The translations under genes were made by a program, and so were the position numbers. This document shows, piece after piece, positions 33,243-62,069 of a stretch of 64,000 nt of DNA. The DNA is taken from assembly GCF_000716605.1 (NCBI RefSeq), contig NZ_JNXE01000001.1, forward strand, positions 640,416 to 704,415, read 5' to 3'. Each line of letters begins with the position of its first letter. The first letter of the stretch is position 1. Source of the stretch: Streptomyces sp. NRRL F-525. GTDB lineage: Bacteria > Actinomycetota > Actinomycetes > Streptomycetales > Streptomycetaceae. Under the pieces are notes generated by a model. That model was not told where the DNA came from. It saw only the letters and a program-made list of their open reading frames with translations, and did not search any database.

Positions 33243-33269
33243 AGATCACGATCTACGGCTGGAGTACGA
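33243..33269 (-). repeat. Right terminal inverted repeat of IS701-like element
   Basis: 27 bp starting AGATCACGATCTACGG on the plus strand; the reverse complement equals the left repeat except at two positions. It begins one base after the stop of the transposase relic and ends 18 bp before the end of the MFS gene. Confidence 0.85.
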
Positions 33270-36770: not shown

Positions 36771-36899
36771 ACGCCCGATGCTGCCACCCGCCACTGACAA
36801 CGCCCCGCTGCCGCCGTGACGGGGGAAGCCGGCGCGTCGATGTCACCGCGGGAAACCCCTGTTACCTCTAAGTGACCTTCCTGCTGCCACAGTTGGGGT

Positions 36900-37553: not shown

Positions 37554-37621
37554 TGGGCGCGACCGCGGGTCGGCCCTTGTTGCCAGGCGGGTGACGGTAC
37601 GCCAGCCTGTGAGGGGAGTAA

Positions 37622-37638
37622 CCCGGGTGTGACCCGGG
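37622..37638. promoter_or_regulatory. CCCGGGT-GTG-ACCCGGG dyad upstream of second response regulator
   Basis: A perfect 7-bp inverted repeat with a 3-bp centre in the 133-bp gap between the two regulator genes. It lies 49 bp before the ATG at 37687 and could be an operator or a hairpin. Nothing else shows which. Confidence 0.45.
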
Positions 37639-37686
37639 GCGGGGGAGCCTGGGGTCCGTGACGCGTTGTGTCTCGTAGGGGGAGCG

Positions 37687-38340
37687 ATGAGGGTACTGGT
37701 GGTTGAGGACCATACGGAACTCGCGGACTCGATCACCAGAGTGTTCCGCCGCGAGGGCCTCGCCGTGGACACCGCCTACGACGGCAGGACCGCGCTCGAC
37801 CTCGCCATCGACGTCGACTACGACGTGGTCGTCCTCGACCGCGACCTCCCCGACGTCCACGGCGACGAGGTGTGCGCCGAACTCACCGCCGAGAGCGTCC
37901 GCACCAAGGTGCTCATGCTCACCGCCTCCGCCTCCATCGCCGACCGGGTCGAAGGCCTCGGCCTCGGCGCCGACGACTACCTCCCCAAGCCCTTCGCCTG
38001 GGCCGAACTCCTCGCCCGCACCCGCGCCCTCGGCCGCCGCGCCCACCCCGTACGGGAGCCCGTCCTCGCCCGCGGCTCCCTCCTCCTCGACCCCGCCCGC
38101 CGCACCGCCAGCCACGCCGGCACCCAACTCCCCCTCACCGCCAAGGAGTTCGGCGTACTCGCCTACCTGCTCGGCGCCGAGGGACGGACCGTCCCGGCCG
38201 ACGAACTGCTCGCCAAGGTGTGGGACGAGGTCACCGACCCCGGCACCACCACCGTCAAGGCCACGGTCAACCGGCTCCGGACCAAACTCGTCGACCGCTC
38301 CGTGATCCAGACCGTGCCCGGAGAGGGCTACCGGATCTGA
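37687..38340 (+). CDS. OmpR-family response regulator (second of two)
   Basis: A 217-residue receiver/winged-helix regulator (Asp51 in VVVLDRDLP; YLPKPFAWAELLART; LTAKEFGVLAYLLGAEGRTV; KATVNRLRTKLVDRSVIQTV). The start ATG 37687 has AGGGGGAG just upstream. It stops 1 bp before the sensor kinase ATG, so it is the cognate regulator. The output domain resembles that of the first regulator at 36900. Confidence 0.94.
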   Translation: MRVLVVEDHTELADSITRVFRREGLAVDTAYDGRTALDLAIDVDYDVVVLDRDLPDVHGDEVCAELTAESVRTKVLMLTASASIADRVEGLGLGADDYLPKPFAWAELLARTRALGRRAHPVREPVLARGSLLLDPARRTASHAGTQLPLTAKEFGVLAYLLGAEGRTVPADELLAKVWDEVTDPGTTTVKATVNRLRTKLVDRSVIQTVPGEGYRI

Positions 38341-38341
38341 C

Positions 38342-39889: not shown

Positions 39890-42800
39890 ATGAGCGAACG
39901 AACCGGTGGCAGCTTTTCCCTGTCCGACAGCCAGGAGGGAATCTGGCACGCACAGCGCCTCGGAGGCCCTCACGCGCTCTACACCGTCGGGCAGGCCGTC
40001 GAGATCACGGGCGCCCTCGACGTGCCCGCCTTCGAGGCCGCGCTGCGCCGGACGGCCGAGGAGACCGAGATCCTGGGCATGCGATTCACCGAGGACACGG
40101 ACGGCGGGGCACGGGAGCGCGCCGTGCCGCACGCCGCCCGGCGATGGTCGCTGCGCATCGAGGAGCCGGCCGGGGATGCCGCCGGCGACCCGCGTGCATG
40201 GATGGAAACCCGGATGCGCGAGGAACTCGCCGGGGTCGAAGATCCGCGCGGGGAGCAACTCTTCTCGTTCGTGCTCTTCCGTCTGTATTCCCATCGGTAC
40301 TGCTGGTTCCAGGGCTATAACCACCTGCTGCTCGACGGATACGCCTGCACACTGATGGCTCGCCGGGTCGCCGAGGTGTATTCGGCCCTCGTCGGAGGCG
40401 GACCACACCCGCAGGTCGAATTCGTCTCGTTGAGTAAGGCACTTGCCGAGGAAGCGAGTTACCGGAACTCGACCGAATTCACCGACGGCCGACGGTATCT
40501 GCACGACCGATTCTCGGACCGGCCGGAATTGGCCGAGGTCCCGCGCCTTTCCGGAGTCTCCGGCTTTCTCCAGGACACCGATGCCGGAGCGGTGCTGCGC
40601 GAGACCGGCAGCCTCGCACCCGCGGCGACCGACGCGCTGCGCGCCGCGGCGGACAGCGTCGGCCTGCGCACGTCGCGGCTGCTCGCCGCCGCCACCGGCG
40701 CCTTCGTGAGCGGCATGGCCGGCTCGGCCGAGGCGCTCCTCAGCCTGCCCGTGACCGGGCGCGTGAGCGAGACGGACCTGCGGGCCCGCGTCACCCGGGC
40801 GAACATGCTGCCCCTACGGTTCCCGGTCCCGGCCGGCGCGAGCCTCCTCGACCTCGCCCGGACCGCCGACGGTGCCGTCGCTGAACTGCTCCGCCACCAG
40901 CGGTACCGCGGCGAACGGCTGCGCCGGGAACTCGGCTGGCCGGAGGGCGACCGCTGGCACTTCGGGCCGTACCTCAACATCCTTCCGCGGACCGGGGAGT
41001 TGGCTTTCGGCGACTGCCGTGGCGTGGCACGGGACGTTTCGACCCGACTGGTCGAGGACTTCGGGGTGCTGATCGACCGGACGGGCTCGAAGATCGAGAT
41101 CACCGTCGAGGCGAACGCGGCGCTCTACGACCGGGCATGGGTGCGGGCGGTCCAGCGGTCGCTGGTCGGATTCGTCGCACGGGCGGTGGAGGACCCGACG
41201 GCTCCGCTGCGGCGGATCGGAGTGATGGGGGACGACGAACGTGCCCTGGTGATCAGTGGGTGGGGCGGTGCGGCGCGGGGTGTGGACGCGTCGACGGTGG
41301 TGGAGCGGTTCCGTGGGTGGGCGGCGCGGACGCCGGAGGCAGCGGCGTTGTGGTTCCGGCAACAGGCCTTGTCCTACGGCGAGTTGGATGCGCGGTCGGA
41401 TGCGTTGGCCCGTGGGCTGATTGCCCGTGGTGTGGGTCGTGAGTCGCGGGTGGGGCTGTGCTTGCCGCGTGGGGCCGAGATGGTCGTGGCCATGTTGGCG
41501 GTGTGGAAGGCCGGTGGCGCGTACGTCCCGTTGGATCCGGAGTATCCGGCGGAGCGGCTGGGGTTCATGGTGGCCGACAGCGGTGTGGAGTTGGTGCTGG
41601 TCGCGGAGGAGACCGTAGACCGGTTGTCGGCGGACGTGGAGACGGTTCTGCTGGGCGAGTTGGGGACTGGCTCAGGTGTCTTGCCGGAGGTTGTCGGTGG
41701 CCAACTGGCCTACGTCATCTATACGTCGGGGTCGACTGGTCGTCCGAAGGGTGTGGCGGTGGCGCATGCCTCCGTGGTGAATCTGGCGTCGGCGATGGGT
41801 CCTGTTCTCGGCGTGAAGTCTGGTGTGACTGCGTTGCAGTTCGCGTCGTTCAGCTTCGATGCGGCGGTGCTGGACGTGGCGGTGACGCTGGCCGCTGGGG
41901 GCACGTTGGCGATCGCTTCGTCCGAGGAGCGGCAGGACCCGGCTGCTCTCGCCGCGATGGTCGAGGCGGCCGGTGTGGTTACGGCGAGTGTGGTGCCGTC
42001 GTTGCTGGGGGCCTTGGAGCCGAAGTCGGTTGCCGGGGTGGGGAATTGGGTGCTTGGGGCGGAGCGTCTGGAGGCTGGTCTCGCGGCCCGGTGGCGTGCG
42101 GGTGCCCGGGTGTGGAACACGTACGGGCCCACCGAGGCCACCGTCATCACCACCGCCGTTCTGCTGGACGAGGGCATCACGGGTGAGGATGCTCCGCCTG
42201 CGATCGGCCGCCCGCTGCCCAACATCCGTACCTACGTGCTGGATGCGTTCCTGCGGCCTGTTCCGGTGGGTGTGGCGGGGGAGCTGTACATCGCGGGAGA
42301 CGGTCTGGCTCGTGGATATATCGGTCGTGCGGGTCTGACGGCGGAGCGGTTCGTGGCGTGCCCGTTCGGTGATGGCGGGCGGATGTATCGCAGCGGGGAT
42401 CTGGCACGCTGGACTTCGGACGGGCAGCTGGAGTTCGTGGGGCGTGCGGACGCGCAGGTGAAGATCCGTGGATTCCGGGTGGAGTTGGGCGAGGTCGAGG
42501 CTGTTCTTGCCGCGCACCCGCAGGTCGGACGGGCCGTGGTGGTGGTCCGGGACGGTCGGCTGGTCGGATACGTCGTCGGGAACGCGGACGGCGAGGACGT
42601 ACGGGAGTTCGCGGCCACCCGGCTGCCGGAGTACATGGTGCCGTCAGCCGTCGTAGTCCTGGATGCCTTCCCGCTCACCGTCAACGGCAAGGTCGATCGG
42701 GTCGCGCTGCCGGTGCCGGAGGCTGCGTCCGGTGCCGGTCGGGCTGCGGCGTCGCCCGCCGAGGAGGCGTTCTGCGCCCTGTTCGCCGAGGTGTTGGGGC

Positions 42801-45800
42801 TGGAGGAGGTCGGGGTCGGGGACAGCTTCTTCGCGCTGGGCGGCGACTCGATCACGGCGATGCTGCTGGTGTCGCGTTCTCGCCGCGAGGGCCTGGTCGT
42901 CGGCGCCCGCCAGGTGCACGAGTTGCGGACACCGGCGCAACTGGCCGCGGTGGCAACGCCGGTTGACGGCGTGGCGGACGGCGCGCGCTCGGCGGACTCC
43001 GCTGTTGGTGAGGTGCCGCTGACGCAGGTGATGCGTGAGGTGCTGGAGCGGGTTGGTGCCGAGGGCGTTCGCGCGGTCGTGCAGTCGATGGTGGTGGAGG
43101 CGCCGGCGGGGCTGGACGAGGTGGCGCTGCGGGACGCGGTGGCGGTCCTGATGGATCGTCATGATGCGTTGCGAGCGCGGTTGGTGGCCGAGTCCGATGT
43201 GTTGGTGGTGCCCGGGGTGGGTGCGGTGGATGTGTCCGGGCTGGTGGCTCGGGTGAATGTGGTCGGGGTTGATCCGGCTGCGGTGGTGGAGGAGCAAGTC
43301 GAGGCGGCGGTGGGGCGGTTGGATCCTGCGGCCGGGGTGATGGTTCAGGTGGTGTGGCTGGACGCGGGGCCGGATGTGCCGGGCCGGCTGGTCGTGGTGG
43401 CCAACCACCTGGTCGTCGACGCGGTGTCCTGGCAGGTGCTCCTGCCGGATCTGTGGTCCGCGTATGAGGCCAGCGTCGAGGGACGTGCCGTGGAGTTGGA
43501 TCCGGTTCCGGTGTCGTTCCGGGCGTGGGCGCGGGAGTTGGCGGTGGAGGCCGGTCGTCCGGAGCGGGTGGCCGAACTAGCGGCGTGGCAGGCGGTGTTG
43601 GACGGTCCGCAGGCGTTGCTCACGGATGTGCCGCTGGATCCGCTGGTGGATGTGGGTGAGACGGTTCGGGAGGTGGCGGTTTCCGTTCCGGCAGACGTGA
43701 CGTCCGCGCTGTTGGCGGCGGTGCCGTCGGCGTTCCATGCCGGTGTGGACGAGGTGCTGTTGGCCGGTCTGGCGGGGGCGGTTGGTGAGTGGGCCGCCGG
43801 TGTGGACGGCGGGTTCGTGGTGGATGTCGAGGGGCACGGCCGGGTGTCGCTGTCCGAGGGGACGGATCTGTCCCGGACGGTGGGGTGGTTCACCGCCTCG
43901 CATCCGGTGCGGCTGGCTGCCGACGCGGGTGCCGATGGTGGTGTGTCGGTGCTCGGGGTGAAGGAGCGGGTGCGGGCGGTGCCCGGGGACGGGCTCGGCT
44001 ACGGGCTGTTGCGGTACGTCAATCCGGAGACGGCTGGGGAGTTGGCGGGGTTCCCGTCGGCTCAGGTCGGCTTCAACTACCTCGGGCGTGTGGGGACCGG
44101 CTTCGGGGCCGGGAGCGCGCCCGATGCCCCCGTGATGCACGCCCTGGAACTGCTCTGCTCGGTACGGGAGTTGGCGGACGGTCCGGTGCTGGAGCTGCGG
44201 TTGGCTTACCCGGAGCGGTTGTTGGGGGCTGAGCGGGCGCGAGGGCTGGTGGAGGCGTGGGCGGGCACGCTTGCCGGCCTGGTCGCGGATGTCCGGGCGG
44301 GGGCGGGCGGCTACTCGCCGTCGGATTTCCCGCTGGTGGCGTTGGACCAGGCTGGGGTGGAGGAGGTCGAGGCGGCGGTTCCGGGGCTGGTGGACGTTCT
44401 TCCGGTCGCTCCGCTTCAGGAGGGTCTGCTGTTCCACTCCCTCTTCGACGAAGACGGTGTGGATGTCTATGTCGAGCAGTTGGTGTTGACGCTCAACGGT
44501 GAGGTGGACGCGGGTCGGTTGCGGGCGTCGTGGCAGGCGTTGGTTGATCGGCATGCGGCGTTGCGGGCCGGGTTCGTTCAGGTCCGGGGTGCTGACGGTC
44601 CTGTTCAGGTGGTGGTTGACCGAGCCGAACTGCCGTGGCGCGAGGTCGACTTGAGGGGTCTGGGTGAGGATGCCGCGGATCGGGTGGGTGCTGAGGAGCG
44701 GTCGGCGCGGTTCGATCTAGCGGCGCCTCCGTTGCTGCGGGTGGCGTTGGTGCGCGTTGGTCACCGTCGCTATCAGATGGTGGTGACGCTTCATCACCTG
44801 CTGCTGGATGGTTGGTCGCTCCCGTTGGTGATGCGGGAGTTGTGGGCGATCTACGCGGCCGGTGGCCGGGCGGGTGGCCTTGGTGTGCCGGTGTCGTCGC
44901 GGCCGTACTGGGCGTGGTTGGCCGGTCGGGATACGTCGGCGGCGTTGGAGGCCTGGCAGGACGAGTTGGCGCCGGTTGAGGAACCGACGCTCGTCGCGCC
45001 CACCGAGCCGAGTGCGACGGCGTCCGTCGTCCTGGACCGGGTGACGGATCGCGCGAGTGTCGAACTGGTGCGTGACCTGGACCGAGTCGCCCGTGGTGCC
45101 GGCGTGACGCTCAACACCGTGGTGCAGCTGGCCTGGGGGATGGTGCTGGGGCAGTTGACGGGTCGTCGTGAGGTGGTCTTCGGGGCGACGGTGGCCGGTC
45201 GTCCGGCGGAGCTTCCGGGGATGGAGGCGATGCTCGGCCTGTTCATCAACACCCTGCCGGTACGCGTTGACCTGGACGCGGCTCATTCGGTGCGCGAGGC
45301 CCTTCAGGCGCTTCAGGCACGGCAGTCGGCGTTGCTCGACCACCAGCATGTCGGCCTGAGCGAGGTGCAGCGGGCCGCCGGTCCCGGCGCGACCTTCGAC
45401 ACTCTGCTGGCCTTTGAGAACTACCCGGGTGACCTGGACGCCCAGCCCCTCGGCGACGGTCTCACCGTCACGTCCACCGAGCTCCGCGAGTCGACCAACT
45501 TCGCGCTGGCGCTGGGGGTTACCCCGGACGACGGCCTCGCGATCCGCCTCGACTACCGCGCCGACGTGTTCAGGCGCCGGAGCGCGCTGCGGATGGCTCG
45601 GCGCCTGGTTCGGGTGCTGGAGCAGATGGCGGCCGATCCGCGACTGCGGCTCAGCGAGATCGAGTTGCTGGACGAGTCCGAGCGGGCCGCGGTGGTGGAG
45701 GGGTGGAACGCCACCGCGCGGGATGTGGACGCGTCGACGGTGGTGGAGCGGTTCCGTGGGTGGACGGTGCGGACGCCGGACGCGCCGGCGCTGTGGTTCC

Positions 45801-48800
45801 GGCAACAGGCTTTGTCCTACGGCGAGTTGGATGCGCGGTCGGATGCGCTGGCTCGTGGCTTGGTCGCCCGTGGTGTGGGGCGAGAGTCGCGGGTGGGGCT
45901 GTGCTTGCCGCGTGGAGCCGAGATGGTCGTGGCGCTGCTGGCGGTGTGGAAGGCCGGTGGGGCGTACGTCCCGTTGGATCCGGAGTATCCGGCGGAGCGG
46001 CTGGCGTTCATGGTGGCCGACAGCGGTGCCGAGTTGGTGCTGGTGGCGGAGGAGACCGTAGACCGGGTGTCGGCGGACGTAGAGACGTTGCTGCTGGGCG
46101 AGTTGGGGGCCGACTCGGGCGACCTGCCGGAGGTTGTCGGTGGCCAACTGGCCTACGTCATCTATACGTCGGGGTCGACGGGGCGTCCGAAGGGTGTGGC
46201 GGTCGCGCATGCCTCCGTGGCGAATCTGGCGTCGGCCATGCGTCCCGTTCTCGGTGCGGACCTCGGCGTGACGGCGTTGCAGTTCGCGTCGTTCAGCTTC
46301 GACGCGGCGGTGCTGGATGTGGCGGTCACGTTGGCAGCCGGGGGCGCGTTGGCGATTGCCTCGGCAAGTGAGCGGCAGGACACGTCCGGGTTGGCGGCCA
46401 TGGTCGAGGCGGCCGGGGTCGAGGTGGCGAGTGTGGTGCCGTCGTTGCTGGGGGTGCTGGAGCCGGATTCGGTTGCGGGGGTGGGGAATTGGGTGCTGGG
46501 CGCGGAACGGCTTGAGGCCGGTCTGGCGGCGAAGTGGCGTGCGGGTGCCCGGGTTTGGAACACCTATGGCCCGACGGAGGCGACCGTCATCACCACCGCC
46601 GTCCTGTTGGAGGAGGGCATCACCGGTGAGGACGCGCCGCCGGCGATCGGCCGTCCGCTGCCCAATGTGCGTACGTACGTCCTGGACGCGTTCCTCCGGC
46701 CCGTGCCCGAGGGCGTCACGGGTGACCTCTACGTTGCCGGATCCGGCCTGGCTCGCGGTTATATCAACCGGTCTGACCTGACGGCGGAGCGGTTTGTGGC
46801 CTGCCCGTTCGGTGATGGCGAGCGGGTGTATCGGACGGGGGACCTGGCTCGCTGGACCGCCGACGGGCAGCTGGAGTTCGTTGGGCGTGCGGATGCACAG
46901 GTGAAGATCCGCGGGTTCCGGGTCGAACTCGGCGAGGTCGAGACTGTGTTGGCCGCCCATCCGCAGGTTGGGCGGGCCGTGGTGGTGGCTCTTGATGGTC
47001 GGCTGGTCGGGTATGTCCTCGGTGACGTGGAGGCCGAGGCGCTGCGGGAGTTCGCCGCCACGCGGCTGCCGGAGTACATGGTTCCGTCGGCCGTCGTCGT
47101 CCTCGATGCGTTCCCGCTGACCGTCAACGGGAAGATCGACCGGGCCGCCCTGCCTGCCCTCGACCTTGCGTCCGCCGATACGCGCGCTCCGTCGACCGAG
47201 GCCGAGGAGGCGTTCTGCGCCTTGTTCGGCGAGGTGTTGGGGCTGGAGGGGGTCGGGGTCGGGGACAGCTTCTTCGCGCTGGGTGGCGACTCGATCATGT
47301 CGATGCAGCTCGCGTCCCGGGCCCGTGCGGCGGGTTGGACTGTGTCGCCCCGGCAGATCTTCGAGGAGAAGACGCCCGAGCGGCTGGCGCAGGTGGCCGT
47401 TGCCTCCTCCGGCACGGGCAGCGTACGGCGCTCGGACACCGGTGTCGGTGAGGTGCCGTTGACCCCGGTGATGCGGGAACTGCTGGATCGGGTCGGCCCT
47501 GAGCGGGCCGGCCGGATCGTCCAGCCGGGTGTGCTGACGGTGCCCCCGGGGCTGGATCGCGAGGTGCTTGTTGCGGCCGTGCGCGCGGTGATGAACCGTC
47601 ATGAGGTGTTGCGGGCGCGGCTGGTGGCGGAGTCCGGGGTGTTGGTGGTGCCGGAAAACCCCGCGGTGCCGGTTGACGAGCTGGTGGCTCGGGTGGATGT
47701 GGTCGGGGTTGATCCGGCTTCGGTGGTGGAGGAGCAAGTCGAGGCGGCGGTAGGGCGGTTGGATCCTGCGGCCGGGGTGATGGTTCAGGTGGTGTGGCTG
47801 GACGCGGGGCCGGATGTGCCGGGCCGACTGGTCGTGGTGGCCAACCACCTGGTCGTAGACACCGTCTCGTGGCAGATTCTGCTGCCCGATCTTGAGCGGG
47901 CCCTCACGATGCTCGTTGAGGGACGCGCCGTGGAGTTGGATGCGGTTCCGGTGTCGTTCGGGGCGTGGGCGCGGGAGTTGGCGGTGGAGGCGGGTCGGCC
48001 TGAGCGGGTGGCCGAGTTGGCGGCGTGGCGGGCGGTGGTGGACGGTCCGCAGGTGTCGCTCACCGACGCACCGTTGAATCCGCTGGTGGATGTGGGCGCG
48101 TCGGTTCGGGAGGTGGCGGTTTCCGTTTCGGCGGAGGTGACGTCTGCGCTGTTGACGGTGGTGCCGTCGGCGTTCCACGTCGGGGTGGACGAGGTGTTGC
48201 TGGCTGGTCTTGCGGGGGCGGTTGGTGAGTGGGCCGGTGTGGGCGGCGGGTTCCTGGTGGATGTTGAGGGGCATGGCCGCGAGCCGTTGTCGGGCGTCCC
48301 TGATCTGTCGCGGACGGTGGGGTGGTTCACGTCTTCGCGTCCGGTGAGGTTGAGCGCGGGCGTGGGCGCCGATGGCGGTGGTGGTGTGTCGGTGCTCGGG
48401 GTGAAGGAGCAGGTGCGGGCGGTGCCCGGGGACGGCCTCGGCTACGGGCTGTTGCGGTACGTCAATCCGGACACGGCTGAGGAGTTGGCGGGGCTGCCGT
48501 CGGCGCAGGTCGGCTTCAACTACCTCGGGCGCGTGGGCTCTGCTGAGGGTTTCGGTGCCGGGGGCACGTCCGATGCCCCGGTGATGCATGCGGTGGAACT
48601 GCTCTGCTCGGTAAGGGAGTTGGCGGACGGCCCGGTGCTGGAGCTGCGGTTGGCGTACGCGGAACGGCTCTTGAGCGCTGACCGGGCGCGGGAGTTGGTC
48701 GAGGCGTGGGTTGATGCGCTGACGGGTCTGGTCGCGGATGTTCGGGCGGGGGCGGGTGGTCACTCGCCGTCGGACTTCCCCTTGGTGGCGCTGGAACAGG

Positions 48801-51800
48801 CCGGGGTGGAGGAGATCGAGGCGGCGGTTCCGGGGCTGGTGGACGCTCTTCCCGTCGCTCCGCTTCAGGAGGGCCTGCTGTTCCACTCCCTGTTTGACCA
48901 AGACGGTGTGGATGTCTATGTCGAGCAGTTTGTTCTGGCGCTCGACGGTGAGGTGGACGGGGGCCGGTTGCGGGCGTCGTGGCAGGCGTTGGTTGATCGG
49001 CATGCGGCGTTGCGAGCCGGGTTCGTGCAGATCGGGGGCGCGGCGGGACCCGTACAGGTGGTGGTTGACCGAGTCGAACTGCCGTGGCGCGAGGTCGACT
49101 TGACGGACTTGGGCGAGGACGCCGCGGATCAGGTGGGTGTTGAGGAGCGGTCGGCGCGGTTCGATCTCGCGGCGCCTCCGTTGCTGCGGGTGGCGTTGGT
49201 GCGCGTCGGCCATCGCCGTTTCCAGATGGTGGTGACGCTCCATCACCTTCTCCTCGATGGTTGGTCGCTTCCCCTGGTGATGCGGGAGTTGTGGGCGATC
49301 TATGCAGCCGGCGGCCGGGCGGGTGGGCTCGGTGCGCCCGTGTCGTCGCGGCCGTACTGGGCATGGTTGGCCGGTCGGGATACGTCGGCGGCGCTGGAGG
49401 CCTGGCGGGACGAGTTGGCGCCGGTCGAGGAACCGACGCTCGTCGCGCCCACTGTCGCCGGGACGGACGCCGTGTTGGCCCGGTCGCTGACGGTCGAGGC
49501 GCGGGAGGGGCTGGTCGAGGGTCTGGAGCGGGTTGCCCGTGGTGCAGGCGTGACGCTCAACACCGTGGTGCAGCTGGCCTGGGGGCTCGTGCTCGGGCAG
49601 TTGACCGGGCGTCGTGAGGTGGTCTTCGGGGCGACGGTGGCCGGTCGTCCGGCGGAGCTTCCGGGGATGGAGGCGATGCTCGGTCTGTTCATCAACACCT
49701 TGCCGGTACGCGTCGACCTGGATGGGGCCCGGTCGGTGGGCGAGGCGCTTGAGGCGCTTCAGGCACGGCAGTCGGCGTTGCTCGACCACCAGCATGTCGG
49801 CCTGAGCGAGGTGCAGCGGGCCGCCGGCCCCGGCGCGACCTTCGACACCCTGCTGGCCTTCGAGAACTACCCGGGCGATCCGGCGGCGCAGCCGGCAGCG
49901 GCGGGCCTGACGATCTCAGGCGTCGCGTCGCGCGAGTCGACGAGCTTCGCGCTGGCGCTGGGCGTCAGGCCCGAGGAAGGGCTGACGCTACGGCTGGACT
50001 ATCGCCCGGACGCCTTCGCCGGCGGCGCGGCCCGGACCCTGATCGATCGCATGGTGCGCGCGTTGGAACGGATCGCGGCGGACCCGGCGGCCCGGCTCGC
50101 CGAGCTTGAGCTGCTGGACGAGTCCGAGCGGGTCGCGGTGGTGGAGGAGTGGAACGCCACCGCCCGGCCGACGGAGCCCGGCACGGTCCTGGAGCGGTTC
50201 CGACGATGGGCCGTGGAAACTCCGCATGCGACGGCGGTGCGGTCCGGCGAACAGTCGCTGTCCTACGCGGAGTTGGACGCGCGCTCCGACGCTCTCGCCC
50301 GGGGTTTGGTGGCGCGGGGTGTGGGGCGTGAGTCCCGGGTGGGGCTGTGCCTGCCGCGCGGAACGGAGATGGTGACCGCGGTCCTGGCGGTGTGGAAGGC
50401 CGGTGGCGCGTACGTCCCGCTGGACCCGGATTACCCGTCCGAGCGGCTGGAGTTCATGGTCGGGGACAGTGACGCCGAGCTGGTCCTGGTCGCGGAGGAG
50501 ACAGCGGACCGGCTGTCGGCCGGGGTGGACACCGTCCTGCCCGCGGAACTGGAGACCGAGTTCGGCGAGGGGCCGGACAGCGCCGTGGATCCGGGCCAAC
50601 TGGCCTACGTCATCTATACGTCGGGGTCGACGGGGCGCCCGAAGGGTGTGGCGGTGGAGCACGCCTCCGTGGCCAACCTTGCCTCGGCGATGGGTCCCGT
50701 TCTCTCGTTCAGTTTCGATGCGGCGGTGCTGGATGTGGCGGTGACGTTGGCGGCGGGGGGCACGTTGGCGATCGCCTCGTCCGAGGAGCGGCAGGACGGT
50801 GCTGCCCTCGCCGCGATGATCGACTTCAACGGCGTCGACAGCGCGAGTGTGGTGGGTGCGGAGCGGCTGGAGGCTGGTCTCGCGGCCCGGTGGCGTGCGG
50901 GCGCCCGGGTGTGGAACACGTACGGGCCCACCGAGGCGACCGTCATCACCACCGCCGTTCTGCTGGACGAGGGCATCACGGGTGAGGATGCTCCGCCCGC
51001 GATCGGCCGCCCGCTGCCCAACGTCCGTACGTACGTGTTGGATGCGTTTCTGCGGCCTGTTCCGGTGGGTGTGGCGGGGGAGTTGTACATCGCGGGAGAC
51101 GGTCTGGCCCGCGGCTACATCGGCCGCTCCGACCTGACAGCGGAGCGGTTCGTGGCCTGTCCTTTCGGTGACGGCACGGGGCGGATGTATCGCACCGGCG
51201 ACTTGGCACGCTGGACTTCGGGCGGGCAGTTGGAGTTCGTGGGGCGTGCGGACGCGCAGGTGAAGATCCGCGGGTTCCGGGTCGAACTCGGCGAGGTCGA
51301 GGCGGTGTTGGCCGCACACGCACAGGTTGAGCGCGCTGTGGTGGTCGCACGTGAAGGTCGGCTGATCGGATACGTCGTCGGGGGTGCGGACGCCGAGGCG
51401 CTGCGGGCCTTCGCCGCTACCCGGCTGCCGGAGTACATGGTCCCGTCGGCAGTCGTCGTACTCGACACGTTCCCGCTCACCGTCAACGGCAAGATCGACC
51501 GGTCCGCGCTGCCCGAGCCCGACCTCGCGTCTGTTGCCACCCGTGTGCCTGCGACGCCCGCCGAGGAGGCGTTCTGCGCTCTGTTCGCCCAGGTGTTGGG
51601 CCTGGTGGAGGTCGGGGTCGGGGACGGGTTCTTCGAGTTGGGCGGCGATTCGATCATGTCGATGCAGCTCGCGTCGCGTGCTCGTCGTTCGGGTTGGGTG
51701 GTGACGCCTCGCCAGATCTTCGAGGAGAAGACCCCGGAGCGGCTGGCGTTGGTGGCGGCCGTGACCGAGGACGCGTCCGCGGTCGCCGGGGACACGGGTG

Positions 51801-54800
51801 TCGGTGAGGTGCCGTTGACCCCGGTGATGCGCGAACTGCTGGACCGGGTCGGCCCCGAGGCCGTAGGGCAGATCGTCCAGCCAGGGGTCATGGCGGCGCC
51901 GGCGGGACTGGACCTTGAGGTGCTTGTCGCCGCCGTGCGCGCGGTGATCGACCGTCATGAGGTGTTGCGGGCTCAATTGGCGCTGGAGTCCGGGGTGTTG
52001 GTGGTGCCCGAGGCGAGCGCGATGGATGTGGCCGGGCTGGTGGCTCGGGTGGATGTGGCCGGGGGTGATCCGGCTGCCGTAGTAGGGGAGCAAGTCGGGG
52101 CGGCGGTGGGGCGGTTGGATCCTGCGGCCGGGGTGATGGTTCAGGTGGTGTGGCTGGATGCGGGGCCGGATGTGCCGGGCCGACTGGTCGTGGTGGCCAA
52201 CCACCTTGTCGTAGACACCGTCTCGTGGCAGATCCTGCTGCCTGACCTGGAGCAGGCGAGCAAGGCGTTGGCTGAGGGACGGCCCGTGGAGCTGGAGTCC
52301 GTCCCGGTGTCGTTCCGGGCGTGGGCGCGGGAGTTGGCGGTGGAGGCCGGCCGTCCGGAGCGGGTGGCCGAGTTGGCGGCGTGGCGGGCGGTGGTGGACG
52401 GTCCGCAGATGTCGCTCACGGACGCGCCGTTGAATCCGCTGGTGGATGTGGGCGCGACGGTTCGCGAGGCGGCGGTGACCGTCCCAGTGGAGGTGACGTC
52501 TGCGCTGTTGGCGGCGGTGCCGTCGGCGTTCCATGCCGGGGTGGACGAGGTGCTGTTGGCCGGTCTGGCTGGGGCGGTTGGTGAATGGGCCGTGGGCGTG
52601 GGCGAGTTCCTGGTGGATGTCGAGGGGCATGGCCGTGAGCCGTTGACGGGCATCCCTGATCTGTCGCGGACGGTGGGGTGGTTCACGTCCTCGCGTCCGG
52701 TGCGGTTGAGCGCTGGCGGCGGTGTCGGCGCCGATGGTGGTCTGTCGGTGCTCGGCGTGAAGGAACAGGTGCGGGCGGTGCCGGGGGACGGGCTCGGCTA
52801 CGGGTTGCTGCGCTGGTTGAACCCGGAGACGGCCGGGGAGTTGGCGGGGCTGCCGTCGGCGCAGATCGGCTTCAACTACCTCGGTCGCGTGGGGACCGGC
52901 GAGGGTTTCGGGGCGGGAGGTGCGCCGGAGGCCGCGGTGATGCACGCGATCGAACTGCTCGGATCGGTACGGGAGTTGGCGGACGGCCCCGTGCTGGAGC
53001 TGCGGTTGGCGTACCCGGAACGGTTGCTGGAGGCCGACCGGGCACGCGCACTGCTGGAGGCATGGGCGGAGGCGCTGTCAGGACTGGTGGAGCAGGTCCG
53101 CGACGGGGCCGGCGGCCACAGCCCCTCTGACTTCCCGTTGGTTTCCCTGTCTCAGGGAGGTGTGGAGGAGCTGGAGTCGGCGGTGCCCGCGCTGGAGGAC
53201 GTGTGGCCGTTGTCTCCGCTTCAGGAGGGGCTGCTCTTCCACTCGTCGTTCGATGACGAGGGCGGGGCGGATGTGTACGCGGGTCAGCGTGCCCTTGCTC
53301 TGGACGGGCTTTTGGATGTCGGTCGGTTGCGGGCGTCGTGGGATGTGGTGGTGGGGCGGCATGCGATTTTGCGTGCGGGGTTCCATCGACTGGCCTCGGG
53401 TGAGGCGGTTCAGGCTGTCGCGCGGGAGGTGGAACTGCCGTGGCGCGAGGCCGACTTGAGCGGTCTGGCGGAGGTTGATGCGGAGGTTGCGGCGGCTCGG
53501 TTGTCCGGGGAGGAGTTGTCGGTCGGCTTTGATCTCGGGCGGGGTCCGCTGCTGCGGTTGCTGCTGCTTCGACTTGGCGAGCGGCGTCACCGTCTAGTAC
53601 TGACGACCCATCACATCGTCCTCGACGGCTGGTCGTTGCCGATTCTGCTGAACGAACTGCAGACGGTGTACCGGGCGGGCGGCGGCGCCCAGGCGCTGCC
53701 CGCGGTGCGGTCGTACCGGGATTACCTGTCGTGGCTCAGCCGACAGGACCGGGACGCGGCGAGGGCTGCCTGGCGGGAGGAGTTGGCGGGTGCGGAGGAA
53801 CCGACGCTGGTCGCTCCGGTCGATCAGGCCCGACTGCCGATGCGGCCCGAGGCGGTACGTGTCGAGTGCGGCGCCGAACTGACCCAGGCGCTGAACGACG
53901 TGGCCCGCCGAGGCGGCGTGACGATGGCGACGGTGGTGCAGGGCGCTTGGGCTCTGGTGCTGGCTCGGCTTGCGGGGCGGCGGGATGTGGTGTTCGGGAC
54001 GACGGTTGCTGGGCGGCCGGCGGATCTGCCGGGTGCGGAGTCGCTGATCGGGCTGTTCATCAACACGCTTCCGGTGCGAGTCGAGACGGATGGCAGGGAG
54101 TCCGTACTCGAGATGCTGGACCGGCTGCAGCGCCGCCAACTCGGCGTGATGGGTCACCAGCATCTCGGGCTGGCGGAGATCAAGCAGGTCGCCGGACCGG
54201 GAGCGGAGTTCGACACGCTCGTCGTCTACGAGAACTATCCGCGGTCCGCCGAGGCGCTGCCGGACGACCCCGACGCCCTTGTCATTTGGCCGGGTGGCCG
54301 GACGCGGGACGCCAGTCACTATCCGTTGGGGTTGATCGTCGCGCCGGGTGAGCGGATGGAGTTGCAGCTGGATCATCGGCCGGATCTGTTCGACCGGGCG
54401 CGGGCGGATGAGGTGTTGGCGGCGCTGGTGCGGGTGTTGGAGCAGTTCGCGGCGGATCCGGAGATGCCTCTGGGCCGTGTCGGGTTGCTGGACGCCGAAC
54501 GGCTGGACCGTCTGACGCGGGACTGGCAGGACGTCTCTGCTGAGGTACCGATGGGGACGTTGCCGGAGCTGCTCGCGGAGCAGGTGCGGCGGACGCCGGA
54601 CGCGTCGGCTCTTGAGTCGGGTGAACGCAGGCTGAGCTATGTGGAGTTGGAGGCTGAGGCGGGTCGGCTGGCGCGGTATCTGATTGCTGCGGGTGTGGGT
54701 CCGGAGCGGCGGGTCGCGGTGGTGGCCGAGCGGTCGGTGGGCACGGTGGTGGCGCTGCTGGCCGTCTCGATGGCGGGCGGGGCCTTCGTACCGTTGGACC

Positions 54801-55213
54801 CCGGTCATCCCGCCGAGCGTCTGGCCTTGGTGCTGGCGGATGCGGATCCGGTCGTGGTGCTGTGCACGAAGTCGGGCCGTGCCGTGTTGCCTGAGGCCGA
54901 CCTGCGCCGGGCGATCGCCTTGGACGATCCGGAGGCGGCCGCCGCTGTGGCTGGTCATGCGCCGGGTCGGATCGAGGACGCGGAGCGCATCGCGCCGTTG
55001 AGGGTGGCGAATGCGGCGTATGTGATCCACACCTCGGGTTCAACTGGTCGGCCCAAGGGGGTCGTTGTCTCGCACGCAGGGTTGGCGAACCTGGCGTGGG
55101 CGCAGATCGACCGGTTCGCGGTGCACGGCGACGCATGTGACGGTTCCGCCTGGGGTGTTGGCGGTGGAGGAGGTGCTGCCGTCGTGGTTGGAGACGTTGG
55201 TGGTGGCGGGTGA
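39890..55213 (+). CDS. Non-ribosomal peptide synthetase, modules 1-3 and the start of module 4 (frame breaks in A4)
   Basis: The open frame codes 5107 residues. The order is: starter-type C1 (39890-41270; motif NHLLLDG at Asn144), A1 (41280-42710), T1 (Ser987 in GGDSITA), E1 (43000-44310); C2 (44310-45720), A2 (45720-47150), T2 (Ser2468), E2 (47440-48760); C3 (48760-50160), A3 (50180-51510), T3 (Ser3921), E3 (51780-53110); C4 (53120-54560) and the first half of A4 (54560-55130). C domains activate peptide bonds, A domains load amino acids, T domains carry them, and E domains turn L into D. C2-C4 keep HHxxxDG. E1-E3 have NHLVVDA or NHLVVDT with EGHGR and TVGWFT intact. A3 is shortened. After A4 core motif [10 protein letters not shown] the frame is lost at about 55130 and the last 28 residues are not domain-like. 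There is no thioesterase and no MbtH gene in view. Confidence 0.88.
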
Positions 55214-58200
55214 GGCGTGCCCGCCGGGGTTGGTGGACCGGTGGTCGGCCGGCCGACGGATGGTCAATGCGTATGGCCCGACCGAGGTGACCGTGTGCGC
55301 GGCGATGAGTCTGCCCCTCACCCCCGGAGCCGGGTCCAGGACGGGCGCGGGCGACACCGACGGCGTGCCGATCGGGCGGCCGACGGCGAACATGCGGGCC
55401 TATGTCCTCGACCAGTTCCTCCAGCCGGTACCGGTCGGTGTGGCGGGCGAGTTGTATGTGTCCGGGCCCGGTCTGGCACGCGGTTACTCCGGGCGCCCGG
55501 ACCTGACGGCCGAGCGGTTCGTGGCCGATCCGTTCGATGCCGGGGCGCGCATGTACCGCACCGGCGACCTCGTGCGCTGGCTTCCTGAGGGTCAACTGAC
55601 GTTCGTGGGGCGTGCGGACGAGCAGGTGAAGATCCGCGGCTTCCGTATCGAACTGGGCGAGGTGGAAGCCGTCCTCGACGACCATCCGGAAGTCGCGCAG
55701 GCCGTCGTGACGGTGCGGGACGGCAGGCTCGTCGCCCATGTCGTGGGCGGAGTGGAAGCAGGTGCATTGCGGGAGTTCGTCGCTGCACGCCTGCCGGAGT
55801 ACATGGTCCCGGCGGCGGTGGTGGTGCTCGACGCGTTCCCGCTGACGGTGAACGGCAAGGTGGACCGATCTGCCCTGCCCGCCCCGGAGTTCGGTGGTTC
55901 GGCGTCGGAGCGGCAGCCGGGCACGGCGGCCGAGGAGGCGCTGTGCGCACTGTTCTCGGAAGTGCTGGGCCTGGAGGCGGGCGCGATCGGCGTCGGTGAC
56001 AGCTTCTTCGAGTTGGGCGGCGATTCGATCATGTCGATGCAACTCGCGTCGCGTGCTCGCCGGACCGGTTGGGTGGTGACGCCTCGTCAGATCTTCGAGG
56101 AGAAGACCCCGGAGCGGCTGGCACTGGTCGCGTCGGTGACCGTGGACGCGTCTACGGACGTTGGCGATACGGGTGTTGGTGAGGTGCCGTGGACGCCGTT
56201 GATGAAGTCGATGGGCGCGGACGCGCTGCGGCCCGGCTTCGCCCAGTGGACGGTGATCGGAGCACCGGCCGGCCTCGGCATGGACGTACTGGCGTCAGGC
56301 GTGGAAGCCCTACTGCGGACGCACGGGATGTTGCGGGCCCGGGCTGCGGACGACCAGGTGTTGGTGGTTCCGGAGACCGGTGAGATTGACGCTTCTGGGC
56401 TGGTGGCCCGGGTGGACGTCGTAGGCCTTGCTGAGGGCGAGTTGGATCAGCTGGCGGTGGATGCGGGTCGGCAGGCGGTCGGGCGGTTGGATCCTGCGGT
56501 CGGTGTGATGGTGCAGGTGGTGTGGGTCGATGCCGGGCCGGACCGGGTTGGTCGGATTGCGCTGGCCGCTCATCACCTGGCGGTCGACGGGGTGTCGTGG
56601 CGGGTACTCGTGCCCGACCTGCAGGCGGCATGCGAGGCAGCGGGCGCAGGCGGGCGGCCGGACCTCGCACCGGCGCCGACCTCCTTCCGCGCTTGGGCGG
56701 AGGGTCTACGGCGGGATGCGCAGAGTCCGGCGCGGGTGGGCGAGTTGGAGGCCTGGGTCGATATGGCCGCCGGGCCAACCGGTACCGGGGATCCGCTGGT
56801 GGGTCACCGTGCGCTGGACCCGGTGGCCGACACGGTCGCGACATTGCGCCACCGTTCTTGGTCGGTTCCGGTGGGTGAGGCTGCGGTGCTCGTCGGTGAG
56901 GTGCCGGGAGTCTTCCACTGCGGGTTGCACGAGGTGTTGCTGGCGACGCTGGCCGGTGCGATGGCGGGCCGGCGCCCGGGTTCAGGGACCGGCGGGTTCC
57001 TGGTGGAGGTCGAGGGGCATGGGCGTGAGCCGTTGTCGGAGGGCATGGATCTGTCGCGGACGGTGGGCTGGTTCACCGCCGCCTATCCGGTACGGCTGGA
57101 CGCCTCAGGTGTGGATCTGGCGGAGGCTACGGCCGGTGGTGCGGCGGCGGGTGTGCTGGTGAAGCGGGTGAAGGAGCAGGTGCAGGCGGTGCCCGGGGAC
57201 GGGCTGGGCTACGGCCTGTTGCGTCACCTGAACCTGGAGACGGGGCCGGTGTTGGAGGGTCTGCCGGTGCCGCAGATCGGGTTCAACTACCTGGGCCGGT
57301 TCGCGACCGCCGGTGCTGAGCCGGGCGAGGTCGAGCCCTGGCAGACGGCCGGGGACACGGTCGTAGGAGGTGCTGCTGATCCGGGCATGCCGGTGCTGCA
57401 TGCGCTGGATGCGGGTGCCGTGGTCGCGGACACCGCGAGCGGCCCGGAGTTGACCCTCACCCTGAGCTGGCCCGGCGCGCTGCTGGACGAGACCGACGTA
57501 GACGAACTGGGCCTGGCCTGGCTCGAGTTGCTCTCCGGGCTCGCCGCGCATACCGCCGACCCCTCGGCCGGTGGACACACACCCTCCGACTTCGCGCTGG
57601 TTTCCCTCTCTCAGGAGGGTGTGGAGGAGCTGGAGTCGGCGGTGTCCGGGCTGGAGGACGTGTGGCCGCTGTCGCCGCTCCAGGAAGGGCTGTTGTTCCA
57701 CGCGTCTCTCGACGAGGGGGGTGGGGCGGATGTGTATGCGGGGCAGCGTGCGCTTGCTCTGGACGGGCTTTTGGATGTCGGTCGGTTGCGGGCGTCGTGG
57801 GATGTGGTGGTGGGGCGGCATGCGATTTTGCGTGCGGGGTTCCATCGGTTGGCGTCGGGTGAGGCGGTTCAGGTCGTTGCGCGGGAGGTGGAACTGCCTT
57901 GGCGTGAGGGCGACTTGAGTGGCCTGTCCGAGGCTGAGGCGGCTCGGTTGTCCGAGGACGAGCTGTCGGTCGGCTTTGATCTCGGGCGGGGTCCGTTGCT
58001 GCGGCTGTTGCTGCTTCGACTCGGCGAGCGGCGGCACCGGCTGGTGATGACGTCGCATCACAGCGTCGTCGACGGCTGGTCGTTGTCCGTGCTGATCGAC
58101 GAACTGTCGGCGGCCTACGCCGCGGGCGGAGACGCTGGGGCGCTGCCTGCGGTCAGGTCGTACCGGGACTATCTCGCTTGGCTGGGTCGTCAGGACCGGG

Positions 58201-61200
58201 AGGCGGCGCGGGCTGCGTGGCGGGAGGAGTTGGCGGGTGCGGAGGAACCGACGCTGGTCGCTCCGGTGGATCCGGCGCGGGCGCCGTTGCGGCCCGAGGC
58301 GGTGCGCGCCGAGTGCAGCGCCGAACTGACGCGGGCGTTGGAGGAGTTGACGCGGGAGCGCGGGTTCACCATGGCGACGGTGGTGCAGGGTGCGTGGGCT
58401 GTGGTGTTGGCTCGGTTGTCGGGGCGGCGGGATGTGGTGTTCGGGACGACGGTTGCTGGGCGGCCGGCGGATCTGCCGGGTGCGGAGTCGTTGATCGGGT
58501 TGTTCATCAACACCCTGCCGGTACGGGCTGAGTTGGCCGGTGGTCTGTCGGTGTCGGGACTGTTGTCCGAACTCCAGGCCCGGCAGGTGAGCTTGATGGG
58601 GCATCAGTACCTCGGGCTGGCGGAGATCAAGCAACTCGCCGGACCGGGCGCCGAGTTCGACACGCTCGTCGTCTACGAGAACTATCCGCACTCTGCCGCG
58701 GCCACGCCGGACGGTCCCGACGCCCTCACCATTCGGCCGGGTGGCATCCCCCATGACGCCAGTCACTATCCGTTGGGGTTGATCGTCGCGCCGGGTGAGC
58801 GGATGGAGTTGCAGCTGGATCATCGGCCGGATCTGTTCGACCGGGCACGGGCGGATGAGGTGTTGGCGGCGCTGGTGCGGGTGTTGGAGCGGTTCGCGGC
58901 GGACCCGGAGATGCCTCTCGGTCGCCTCGGGTTGTTGGACGGGGAACGGTTGGACCGTCTGACGCGGGACTGGCAGGACGTGTCCCCCGAGGTGCCTTCC
59001 GGGACGCTGCCGGAGCTGCTTGCCGCGCAGGTGCGGCGGACGCCGGATGCGTCGGCTCTTGAGTCGGGTGAACGCGCCCTGAGCTATGTGGAGTTGGAGG
59101 CTGAGGCGGGTCGGCTGGCGCGGTATCTGATTGCGTCGGGGGTGGGTCCGGAGCGGCGGGTCGCGGTGGTGGCCGAGCGGTCGGTGGGCACGGTGGTGGC
59201 GCTGTTGGCCGTCTCGATGGCGGGCGGGGCGTTCGTACCGCTGGACCCCGCGCACCCCGCGGACCGGCTCGCCCTGGTGCTGGAGGACGCCGACCCGGTC
59301 GCGGTGCTGTGCACGCAGGCCACTTGGTCGGCGCTGCCGGAAGGAGCCCTCGGGCAGGTGATCGTCGTGGACGATCCGGAGACCGTGGCGGATGTGGCGA
59401 GCCATGCGCCGGGTCGGGTGGTGGACGCGGAGCGCATCGTGCCGTTGAGGGTGGCGAATGCGGCGTATGTGATCCACACCTCTGGTTCGACGGGGCGGCC
59501 CAAGGGGGTCGTTGTCTCGCATGCGGGGTTGGCGAAGGCGACGCATGTGACGGTTCCGCCTGGGGTGTTGGCGGTGGAGGAGGTGCTGCCGTCGTGGTTG
59601 GAGACGTTGGTGGTGGCGGGTGAGGCGTGCCCGCCTGGGTTGGTGGACCGGTGGTCGGCCGGCCGGCGGATGGTCAATGCGTATGGCCCGACCGAGGTGA
59701 CGGTCTGCGCGGCGATGAGCCTGCCCCTGAACCCCGGAGACGGATCCGCGGGAAGCGTTCCGATCGGCCGTCCCCTGCGCAACGCGCGGACATTCGTGCT
59801 CGACGAATTCCTCCAGCCGGTGCCGGTCGGTGTGGCAGGCGAGTTGTACGTGTCCGGGCCCGGTCTGGCACGCGGTTACTCCGGGCGTCCGGACCTGACG
59901 GCCGAGCGGTTCGTCGCAGCCCCCTTCGGTGAAGGCGAGCGGATGTACCGCACCGGCGACCTGATCCGCTGGACTGCCGAGGGCCAACTGGAGTTCGTGG
60001 GGCGCGCGGACGAGCAGGTGAAGATCCGCGGCTTCCGTATCGAACTCGGCGAGGTGGAAGGGGCGTTGGAGGCCCACCCCCAGGTCGACCACGCCGTCGT
60101 GATGGTCCGCGAGAGTCGCCTGGTGGGCTACGTCGTCGGCCACGAGGTGGATGCCGACGCTCTGCGGGTCTTCGCCTCCTCGCGGCTGCCGGAGTACATG
60201 GTGCCGGCGGCGGTGGTGGTGCTCGACGCGTTCCCGTTCACGGTGAACGGCAAGGTGGACCGGGCTGCTCTTCCTGACCCGGAGTTCGGTGGTTCGAGCT
60301 CGGCACGGCGGCCTGGCACGGCGGCCGAGGAGGCGCTGTGCGCACTGTTCGCCGAGGTGTTGGGCCTGGAGGCGGGCGCGATCGGGGTCGGCGACAGCTT
60401 CTTCGAGTTGGGCGGCGATTCGATCATGTCGATGCAACTCGCGTCGCGTGCTCGCCGGACCGGTTGGGTGGTGACGCCTCGGCAGATTTTCGAGGAGAAG
60501 ACCCCGGAGCGGCTGGCGTTGGTGGCGGCCGTGACCGTGGACGCGTCTGCGGGCGCCGGGGATACGGGAGTTGGCGAGGTTCCATGGACGCCGTTGATGA
60601 GGTCGATGGGTACGGACGTGCTGCGGCCCGGTTTTGCCCAGTGGACGGTGATCGGTGCACCGGCCGGCCTCGGCGTGGACGTGCTCAAGACGGGCGTGAG
60701 CGCGCTGGTGGAAGCGCACGGGATGTTGCGGGCCCGGGCCGGGAGCGACCAGGTGTTGGTGGTTCCGGAGGCGGGTGAGATCGACGCGTCCGGGCTGGTG
60801 GCCCGGGTGGACGCCGTAGGAGCTGCTGAGGGCGAGTTGGACCGGCTCGCCGTGGATGCTGCCCGGCAGGCGGTGACAAGGCTGGATCCTGCGGCCGGGG
60901 TGATGGTGCAGGTGGTGTGGGTCGATGCCGGGCCGGACCGGGTCGGTCGGATTGCGCTGGCCGCTCATCACCTGGCGGTCGACGGGGTGTCGTGGCGGGT
61001 ACTCGTGCCCGACCTGCGGGCCGCGTGCGAGGCGGCGGCTGCTGGAGGGACGCCGGAGTTGGAGCCGGCGGGGACCTCGTTCCGCGCCTGGGCGGAGGGG
61101 CTGCGGCGGGTGGCGCAAGGGCCCGCGCGGATGGGCGAGTTGGAGGCCTGGGTCGACATGGTCGCCGGGACGGCCCCTGACGGGGAGCCGTTGATCGGCC

Positions 61201-62069
61201 GCCGACCGCTGGACCCGGCCGTCGACACGACGTCCACCCTGCGCCTGCTCTCCTGGTCGCTCCCGGCGGACGAGGCAGCGGTGCTCGTCGGCGAGACACC
61301 GCGGGTGTTCCACTGCGGGCTGCATGAACTGCTGTTGGCCACGCTGGCCGGTGCGGTGACACGTCGGCTCCCGGGCTCAGGGAGGGGCGGGTTCCTGGTC
61401 GAGGTCGAGGGCCATGGTCGCGAGGCGTTGTCGGAGGGGATGGATCTGTCGCGGACGGTGGGCTGGTTCACCGCCGCCTATCCGGTACGGCTGGACGCCT
61501 CGGGTCTCGACCTTGCCGAAGCCGCCGCCGGTGGTGCGGCGGCCGGTGCGCTGGTGAAGCGGGTGAAGGAGCAGGTGCAGGCGGTGCCCGGGGACGGGCT
61601 CGGTCACGGTCTGCTGCGTCATCTGAACCCGGAGTCGGGGCCGGTGTTGGAGGCCCTGCCGGTACCGCAGATCGGGTTCAACTACCTGGGCCGGTTCGCG
61701 ACCGCCGGTGCCGAGCCGGGCCCGGTCGAGCCCTGGCAGACGGCGGGAGACGCGGCCGTAGGAGGCGCTGCGGACCCGGGCATGCGGGTGCTGCACGCGC
61801 TCGCCGCCGGTGCCGTGGTCGCGGACACCGCGAGCGGGCCCGAGCTGACGCTCACCCTGAGCTGGCCCGGCGCACTGCTGGACGAGACCGACGTAGACGA
61901 ACTGGGCCTGGCCTGGCTCGAGTTGCTCTCCGGGCTCGCCGCGCACACCGCCGGTCCTCAGGCCGGCGGACACACCCCCTCCGACTTCTCACTCCTCGAT
62001 CTCGACCAGGACGAAGTCGACGACCTCGAAGCCATAGCTGCCGAACTCGACGAAGGACGGTTCCTGTGA
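55065..62069 (+). CDS. NRPS continuation in second frame: rest of A4, T4-E4, module 5 (C5-A5-T5-E5)
   Basis: This frame carries the continuation of the synthetase. Homology begins at 55128 ([20 protein letters not shown]), so the first 21 residues are not meaningful and no true start is likely; a frameshift joins it to the gene before. Order: second half of A4 (55128-55880), T4 (Ser321), E4 (56170-57560, HHLAVDG motif), C5 (57590-59000, HHSVVDGWS), A5 (59000-60280), T5 (Ser1786), E5 (60560-61970). A5 has [10 protein letters not shown] and then ATHVTVPP with the expected middle missing. The C-terminal tail ([20 protein letters not shown]) resembles a short donor docking segment. It ends with GTGA overlap into the next gene, so they are coupled. 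Confidence 0.8.

Follow-up and report, generated by a model that had tools for sequence, protein, structure and literature searches.

An uninterrupted series of epimerisation domains in a nonribosomal peptide synthetase of Streptomyces sp. NRRL F-525 predicts a D-rich, probably cross-linked arylglycine peptide

The stretch analysed here, called the window, comprises 64,000 nucleotides of the Streptomyces sp. NRRL F-525 genome (contig C1, NZ_JNXE01000001.1, bases 640416–704415) and ends with the contig. From position 39890 to its end it is occupied, on the plus strand, by a nonribosomal peptide synthetase (NRPS) in which every complete module consists of condensation (C), adenylation (A), thiolation (T) and epimerisation (E) domains, so that five E domains follow one another. 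The predicted product is related to the vancomycin-type and feglymycin-type antibiotics and is probably cross-linked, and its first six residues are predicted to be D, an unusually long unbroken run. We consider it likely that an eight-module NRPS makes an N-acylated, all-aromatic octapeptide which is cross-linked by a P450 while bound to the line and has residues 1–6 in the D configuration.

The five E regions of the window were confirmed at the sequence level as genuine E domains. Each follows a T domain and carries EGHGR, TVGWFT, GYGLLR (GHGLLR in E5) and NYLGR, and each scored 89.9–133.3 bits against TIGR01720, for which the curated cut-off is 74.2. A sixth domain (E6), on contig C7, where the line probably continues, reached 140.9 bits, the top score of the seven TIGR01720 matches in the genome; the only match beyond these six lies on contig C20. 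Motifs and profile thus agreed for 5/5 E domains in the window and 6/6 in the inferred line. EGHGR-type DNA was found five times on the plus strand of the window (43829, 48266, 52622, 57012 and 61407), a count never reached in 100 shuffled controls, in which the largest was two. Solved E-domain chains matched by E1 included PvdL, tyrocidine synthetases, bacitracin synthase 3 and gramicidin S synthase 1. The original prediction of an E domain after each of T1–T5 was therefore upheld, and none of the five is a C domain.

The first catalytic motif reads NHxxxD in E1–E3 and HHxxxD in E4–E6, and all six domains retain the second histidine and the aspartate of HHxxxD, EGHGR and NYLG. In C domains the second histidine is apparently essential (PMC1894796; this and the other papers are cited from excerpts). 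A set of 241 proteins was assembled from two homolog lists (best 120 each; 236 proteins) and five proteins of our own strain. Among its 213 E domains the motif was HHxxxD in 137, NH in 45 and DH in 11, with other first residues in 11 and no motif in 9. Decay of E1–E3, as NHxxxD might suggest, was considered and rejected: in the feglymycin producer DSM 11171 (PMC5133696) the motif is readable in five of six E domains and is NH or DH in all five, HH in none. One of these six has DGHGP in place of EGHGR.

The length of the E run was compared with a family sample of 297 genomes, 224 of which (own included) had an E-domain match. Leaving out the own genome, 58 had at least five matches. In these (427 matches in total) runs were counted by joining consecutive E domains at a spacing of 4.0–5.4 kb, a rule under which longer modules break runs and contig ends hide them. 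The E-value limit was 1e-15 in part of the searches and 1e-10 in others; at most 12 candidates were scored per genome, and a few genomes with fewer than five matches may hold more. The longest run was four in 4 genomes, three in 27, two in 18 and one in 9, and no run of at least five was found in these 58 E-rich genomes, in line with the earlier remark that the uninterrupted series stands out. In a separate scan of eight named genomes, chosen because their E domains lie close together and rechecked on nine contig stretches, S. fumanus showed runs of seven and four, and S. varsoviensis, S. sp. G44 and S. cyaneochromogenes runs of four each (five in the last once a step of 5.7 kb is permitted). 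Runs of four, being found repeatedly, are not exceptional. In the 241-protein set a run of at least four occurred in 11 proteins. All seven with a run of five carry the code DALS[VA]GTV in at least three modules; of the four with a run of four, P0131 also has it and three have other codes. The sample counts and the code-bearing proteins together indicate that such an E run, though generally rare, is typical of the arylglycine group.

The host genome is a draft (10.9 Mb, 241 contigs), and the synthetase is read in pieces. The first frame is terminated by a frame change within A4, and the TTG start of the 2334-residue second frame is probably not real. A profile scan of the window returned three C-A-T-E modules, C-A4 and A4-T-E, C-A5-T-E and a truncated C-A6, and the same domain kinds were found in each segment by Pfam. 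At the protein level the closest relatives belong to Streptomyces, and near orthologs were taken from the protein database (best 120 per homolog list). Five of them, P0126–P0130, are 88–95% identical over residues 1–1500, and each is one unbroken protein of 7542–7565 residues with five C-A-T-E modules; the P0126 gene sits on an 11.9 Mb contig. Both frames of the window are 95–96% identical to P0126. Compared with the ortholog, A3 is 32 residues shorter and aligned in two pieces and A5 is 64 residues shorter; A4 is split over two frames, with about 80 profile positions in neither part. An assembly artefact is the likely cause of these gaps and splits, probably through errors in repeats, and real damage may also lie behind them. 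A DNA search with the tail of the line (decayed A domain, thioesterase (TE) and P450) found no close ortholog among 392 genus genomes; 23 of them (own included) had matches, and the best other genome, G393, was 67–73% identical.

As a side observation, GC skew ran from +0.13 to +0.27 and AT skew from −0.16 to −0.32 along the NRPS (window 40000–62000), where very long antisense open frames also occur, e.g. one of 1692 residues at 44717–49795. Both are probably a codon-bias effect.

The NRPS line appears to run on from contig C1 to contig C7, where L022:1-2592 would be the rest of module 6. Contig C7 starts inside an A domain, which is followed by a T domain and E6, and the next protein (3162 residues) has the domains C7-A7-T7-C8-A8-T8-C9-A9*-TE, A9* being the decayed A domain. 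We infer the join from three features. Both contigs are interrupted in the middle of an A domain. Their terminal sequences, 99 bases at the end of contig C1 and 93 at the start of contig C7, are exact copies of window 50606–50704 and window 50762–50854, respectively, both inside A3. In two other strains, the two ortholog genes are listed on contigs of one and the same length (800476 for NPDC096057, 328874 for NPDC055025). The line would then comprise six C-A-T-E modules, two C-A-T modules, an X domain, the decayed A domain and TE. By profile scan module 6 is likewise C-A-T-E, and modules 7 and 8 are C-A-T with no E domain. The claim that every complete module is C-A-T-E accordingly holds for the window but not for the inferred line, in which it applies to six of eight.

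The C domains fit this arrangement. Each of the six E domains is followed by a C domain of D-donor type (C2–C7, margins of 230–269 bits), and C8, which follows a module without E, was assigned to the L-donor type with a margin of 442 bits; its LPFDRPRP is an instance of the L-type motif LPxDxxRP (PMC1894796). The classifier had been trained without close relatives and was right for 44/44 held-out domains after E and 134/150 after T. Together, E domains and D-donor C domains favour the predicted series of at least five, and by inference six, consecutive D residues. C1 fitted neither trained class well (69 vs 84 bits). CDA synthetase I and EntF are among its closest solved relatives, and we take them to be starter types, the CDA synthetase C1 presumably being a starter C domain; this resemblance suggests that the peptide is probably N-acylated. 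A siderophore line was also considered and rejected: the EntF and MxcG matches fit a starter C domain, and no dihydroxybenzoate genes were found among the genes annotated here.

The adenylation codes point to an aromatic peptide rich in 3,5-dihydroxyphenylglycine (Dpg). The codes follow an assumed GrsA numbering with an assumed final K, and substrate names, apart from the feglymycin comparison, were likewise assumed. DALSVGTVI is complete in A1, A2, A7 and A8 and has positions missing in A3 and A6. The orthologs P0126–P0130 show DALSVGTVI in modules 1–3 and DASTVAAVC in modules 4–5, with one exception (DALSAGTVI in module 1 of P0127). In DSM 11171, P0139 and P0145 carry DALS[VM]GTVI in five modules, all five with E. 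If the ratio of (R)-4-hydroxyphenylglycine (Hpg), (S)-Hpg and (R)-Dpg in feglymycin, 1:3:5 (PMC12416467), is read as counts, five (R)-Dpg residues agree with these five modules. The single (R)-Hpg fits P0145 A1, which has E and the code DALSIGAVI, and two of the three (S)-Hpg match modules that lack E (DALHLGL[LF]C), with the third falling on a protein outside P0139 and P0145. The residue order of feglymycin used here is our assumption. Among the A domains of the line no clear Hpg code and no clear Trp code was seen, again with assumed code assignments. On contig C7, at 28.5–32.5 kb, DpgA, DpgC and DpgD scored 651, 762 and 466 bits (cut-offs 425, 530 and 400). From codes and E domains, the residues and their chirality are predicted to be acyl-D-Dpg-D-Dpg-D-Dpg-D-Tyr-D-Tyr-D-Dpg-L-Dpg-L-Dpg.

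The last C domain, C9, is a glycopeptide-type X domain. It follows the last T domain, its best solved matches were 4tx2/4tx3 (peptide synthetase module 7, 3.9e-107) and 6m7l_B, and HHxxxDG is replaced by HRIGADD, which aligns with HRIAADD. The P450 encoded after TE matched 7ttb, 6m7l_A, Oxy proteins and OxyB best. We take 4tx2 to be the teicoplanin X domain, 7tt* and 6m7l to be kistamicin chains and 3o1a/3oo3 to be OxyE. The P450 translation has a PRDD motif and a cysteine-bearing heme loop. X domains of the glycopeptide type have no activity of their own and serve to recruit Oxy enzymes, and PRDD fits the PxDD contact with X described in the same source (PMC6565677).

Between X and TE lies a spacer of 353 residues with no T domain, in which the decayed A domain still matches AMP-binding at 4e-20, best over the first ~100 positions. 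Among 21 HRxxxD[DE] proteins (own included) this spacer measures 351–449 residues in 18 and 26–28 in two, and one protein is cut off; 18 of the 20 reaching TE thus have a long spacer. This pattern suggests that X derives from the C domain of a former module that lost its T domain and in which the A domain decayed, and the order X, decayed A, TE opens the origin of the P450-recruiting X domain to phylogeny.

In the proposed pathway, the starter C domain would cap residue 1 with an acyl group, modules 1–3 and 6–8 would load Dpg supplied by DpgA/C/D, and modules 4–5 would load tyrosine or a close relative. The E domains of modules 1–6 would flip residues 1–6 to D before each next bond, the bonds from D residues being made by C2–C7, and residues 7–8 would remain L, modules 7 and 8 having no E and C8 being of L-donor type. 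After module 8 the inactive, C-like X domain would recruit the neighbouring Oxy-type P450, which would link aromatic side chains; TE would free the product and a MacAB-like exporter would take it out. The proposal builds on the domain order on each contig, the motifs, the C classes, the Dpg genes, the homology of X and P450 and the five-module ortholog protein, all read from sequence, and the residue identities and their chirality, the joining of contigs C1 and C7, the number and place of the cross-links, the cap and the export are deduced.

Several points weigh against this pathway. Between the two contig ends about 31 profile positions of A6 are missing, and no gene was identified for the donor of the acyl cap. 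E domains and chirality can disagree: module 4 of kistamicin has no E, although in every glycopeptide antibiotic (GPA) known at that time position 4 was D (PMC6565677). The C domains of glycopeptide lines are reported to group with the D-donor type throughout, also where the donor is L (PMC1894796), and 16 of the 150 domains after T were assigned to the D-type by our classifier; C class alone is therefore no proof, C8 being nonetheless L-type here. The identification of P0139 and P0145 as parts of the feglymycin synthetase is itself deduced from the strain and the pattern of modules. Hpg may be the true residue behind some of the Dpg calls, since P0145 A1, which by its position should be the D-Hpg module, has the near code DALSIGAVI, and since an Hmo-HpgT-like fusion before the Dpg genes suggests that Hpg is perhaps also made. 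Dpg also racemises easily (PMC5133696). One P450 gene was found in the stretches examined, and kistamicin has two P450s (PMC6565677). In P0015 (Streptomyces sp. NBC_01261), a near ortholog of the tail protein with a spacer of 361 residues, the last C domain is without HRxxxDD.

That last feature would suit a linear, uncross-linked, Dpg-rich peptide like feglymycin, with the X domain and P450 as relics, as would the Dpg code common to the line and DSM 11171 and an NRPS/type III polyketide synthase/terpene region of S. ortus that is 73% similar to feglymycin (PMC10272871) and is perhaps where the ortholog P0014 lies. We regard such a product as unlikely, given that X matches solved X domains well, HRIGADD is kept in seven of eight near orthologs of the tail protein, and the P450 is present with PRDD and heme loop. 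A helical or channel-forming all-D peptide, as originally proposed, agrees with six predicted D residues, but the line is predicted to join eight residues only, and the arylglycine and tyrosine codes, Dpg genes, X domain and Oxy-type P450 indicate a short cross-linked aromatic peptide whose last two residues are predicted to be L; such a helical or channel-forming product is thus very improbable, and protease resistance of the D-rich peptide is plausible. Least credible of all is an origin of the five-E series in repeat assembly, for which the draft state, the gapped or split A3–A5 and the A3 duplicates at the contig ends could be adduced, since P0126–P0130 hold five unbroken C-A-T-E modules in one protein each, P0126 on a large contig, and the E domains of the window differ from one another in sequence.

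The cross-linked octapeptide favoured here has relatives in two known families. P0139 and P0145, taken to be parts of the feglymycin synthetase (49% and 58% identical to the module 1 stretch), likewise combine Dpg-type codes with E, and the E domains there have NH/DH variants; in P0139, however, E stands in alternate modules, whereas the line here has it in six consecutive ones, and feglymycin is a linear tridecapeptide (PMC7148328), whereas the line adds an X domain and a P450. The line accordingly departs from the feglymycin pattern of alternating D/L modules and a linear 13-mer. Type V GPAs (corbomycin, GP6738 and kistamicin) share the aromatic Dpg peptide, X domain and Oxy P450s, and corbomycin and the predicted product both contain Tyr-Tyr-Dpg-Dpg (PMC7567792). 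They differ in having seven or nine residues, including Trp and Hpg, against eight modules here, and the line differs from them in the six-D run, the one P450 found and the decayed A domain that separates X from TE. As in GPA lines, the X domain has lost HHxxxDG, the Oxy-type P450 has the X-contact motif and Dpg supply genes are present. In GPA lines X is directly followed by TE and seven residues (nine in some type V) are joined; for its 353 intervening residues and eight inferred modules the line was not classed as a GPA line and is better described as an arylglycine NRPS variant working like one. The same plan is seen in S. fumanus JCM 4477 (NZ_BNBI01000007.1; L026, L104–L107), with seven C-A-T-E and three C-A-T modules, X, decayed A and TE; this ten-module cluster has two P450 genes downstream and includes one Val-like and one Tyr-like code (names assumed).

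No described product with such an architecture was found in the excerpts of openly licensed PMC papers, and the passages of the glycopeptide literature do not mention an unbroken D stretch. Whether these lines form a new class beside types I–V, making N-acylated, cross-linked peptides of eight to ten residues, mainly Dpg and Tyr, of which six or seven in a row are D, and keeping the decayed A domain as a fossil of the lost terminal module of X, we put tentatively, at slightly under an even chance. If true, cross-linked arylglycine antibiotics would extend to peptides with an unbroken D stretch.

Table 1. Features of the NRPS line and its upstream regulators (window positions unless stated).
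Feature	Position	Strand	Basis or remark
First NRPS open frame, 5107 aa	39890..55213	+	C1-A1-T1-E1-C2-A2-T2-E2-C3-A3-T3-E3-C4-A4 (first part)
Second NRPS frame, 2334 aa	55065..62069	+	A4 (rest)-T4-E4-C5-A5-T5-E5
Module 6 start	62066..64000	+	C6 plus the beginning of A6; truncated where contig C1 ends
C1, probable starter type	39914..41245	+	solved relatives; poor fit to both trained C classes
A1	41291..42721	+	specificity code DALSVGTVI(K), read as Dpg
E1	42995..44359	+	motifs, TIGR01720, solved-chain matches, profile scan
C2, D-donor type	44387..45688	+	after E1; 559 vs 321 bits
A2	45734..47164	+	specificity code DALSVGTVI(K), read as Dpg
E2	47435..48808	+	motifs, TIGR01720, profile scan
C3, D-donor type	48836..50134	+	after E2; 558 vs 306 bits
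A3	50183..51523	+	specificity code DALS-GTVI(K), one position missing, read as Dpg
E3	51791..53164	+	motifs, TIGR01720, profile scan
C4, D-donor type	53189..54502	+	after E3; 584 vs 348 bits
A4	54584..55889	+	partial ....VAAVC; DASTVAAVC(K) (Tyr-like) in intact orthologs
E4	56166..57623	+	motifs, TIGR01720, profile scan
C5, D-donor type	57651..58949	+	after E4; 569 vs 339 bits
A5	59031..60281	+	partial ....VAAVC; DASTVAAVC(K) (Tyr-like) in orthologs
E5	60561..62018	+	motifs, TIGR01720, profile scan
C6, D-donor type	62123..63436	+	after E5; 588 vs 319 bits
Decayed A domain between X and TE	L022:10381-11451 (contig C7)		spacer 353 residues
Two response regulators and histidine kinase	36900..39670	+	directly upstream of NRPS

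Further genes accompany the line. On contig C7 an MbtH gene and the MacAB-like transporter lie between the Dpg genes and the NRPS, and a 209-residue frame at the place expected for DpgB was matched by no NCBIfam model. The tandem regulators and the kinase upstream of the NRPS gave VanR-O, VanR-O and VanS-O as best names, all below the curated cut-offs, and are probably cluster regulators; 7lz9 we take to be VanR of S. coelicolor. Two-component systems associated with glycopeptide clusters have been described, as have the response regulators that belong to the clusters for kistamicin and feglymycin (PMC7148328).

Farther upstream, on the minus strand, a pentapeptide-repeat frame (Pfam; 31786–33249) adjoins an MFS transporter (33288–34619), and a 667-residue frame at 34797–36800 has an SMI1/KNR4 (SUKH) domain. 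Other NRPS clusters of the genome lie on contigs C20, C31 and C8.

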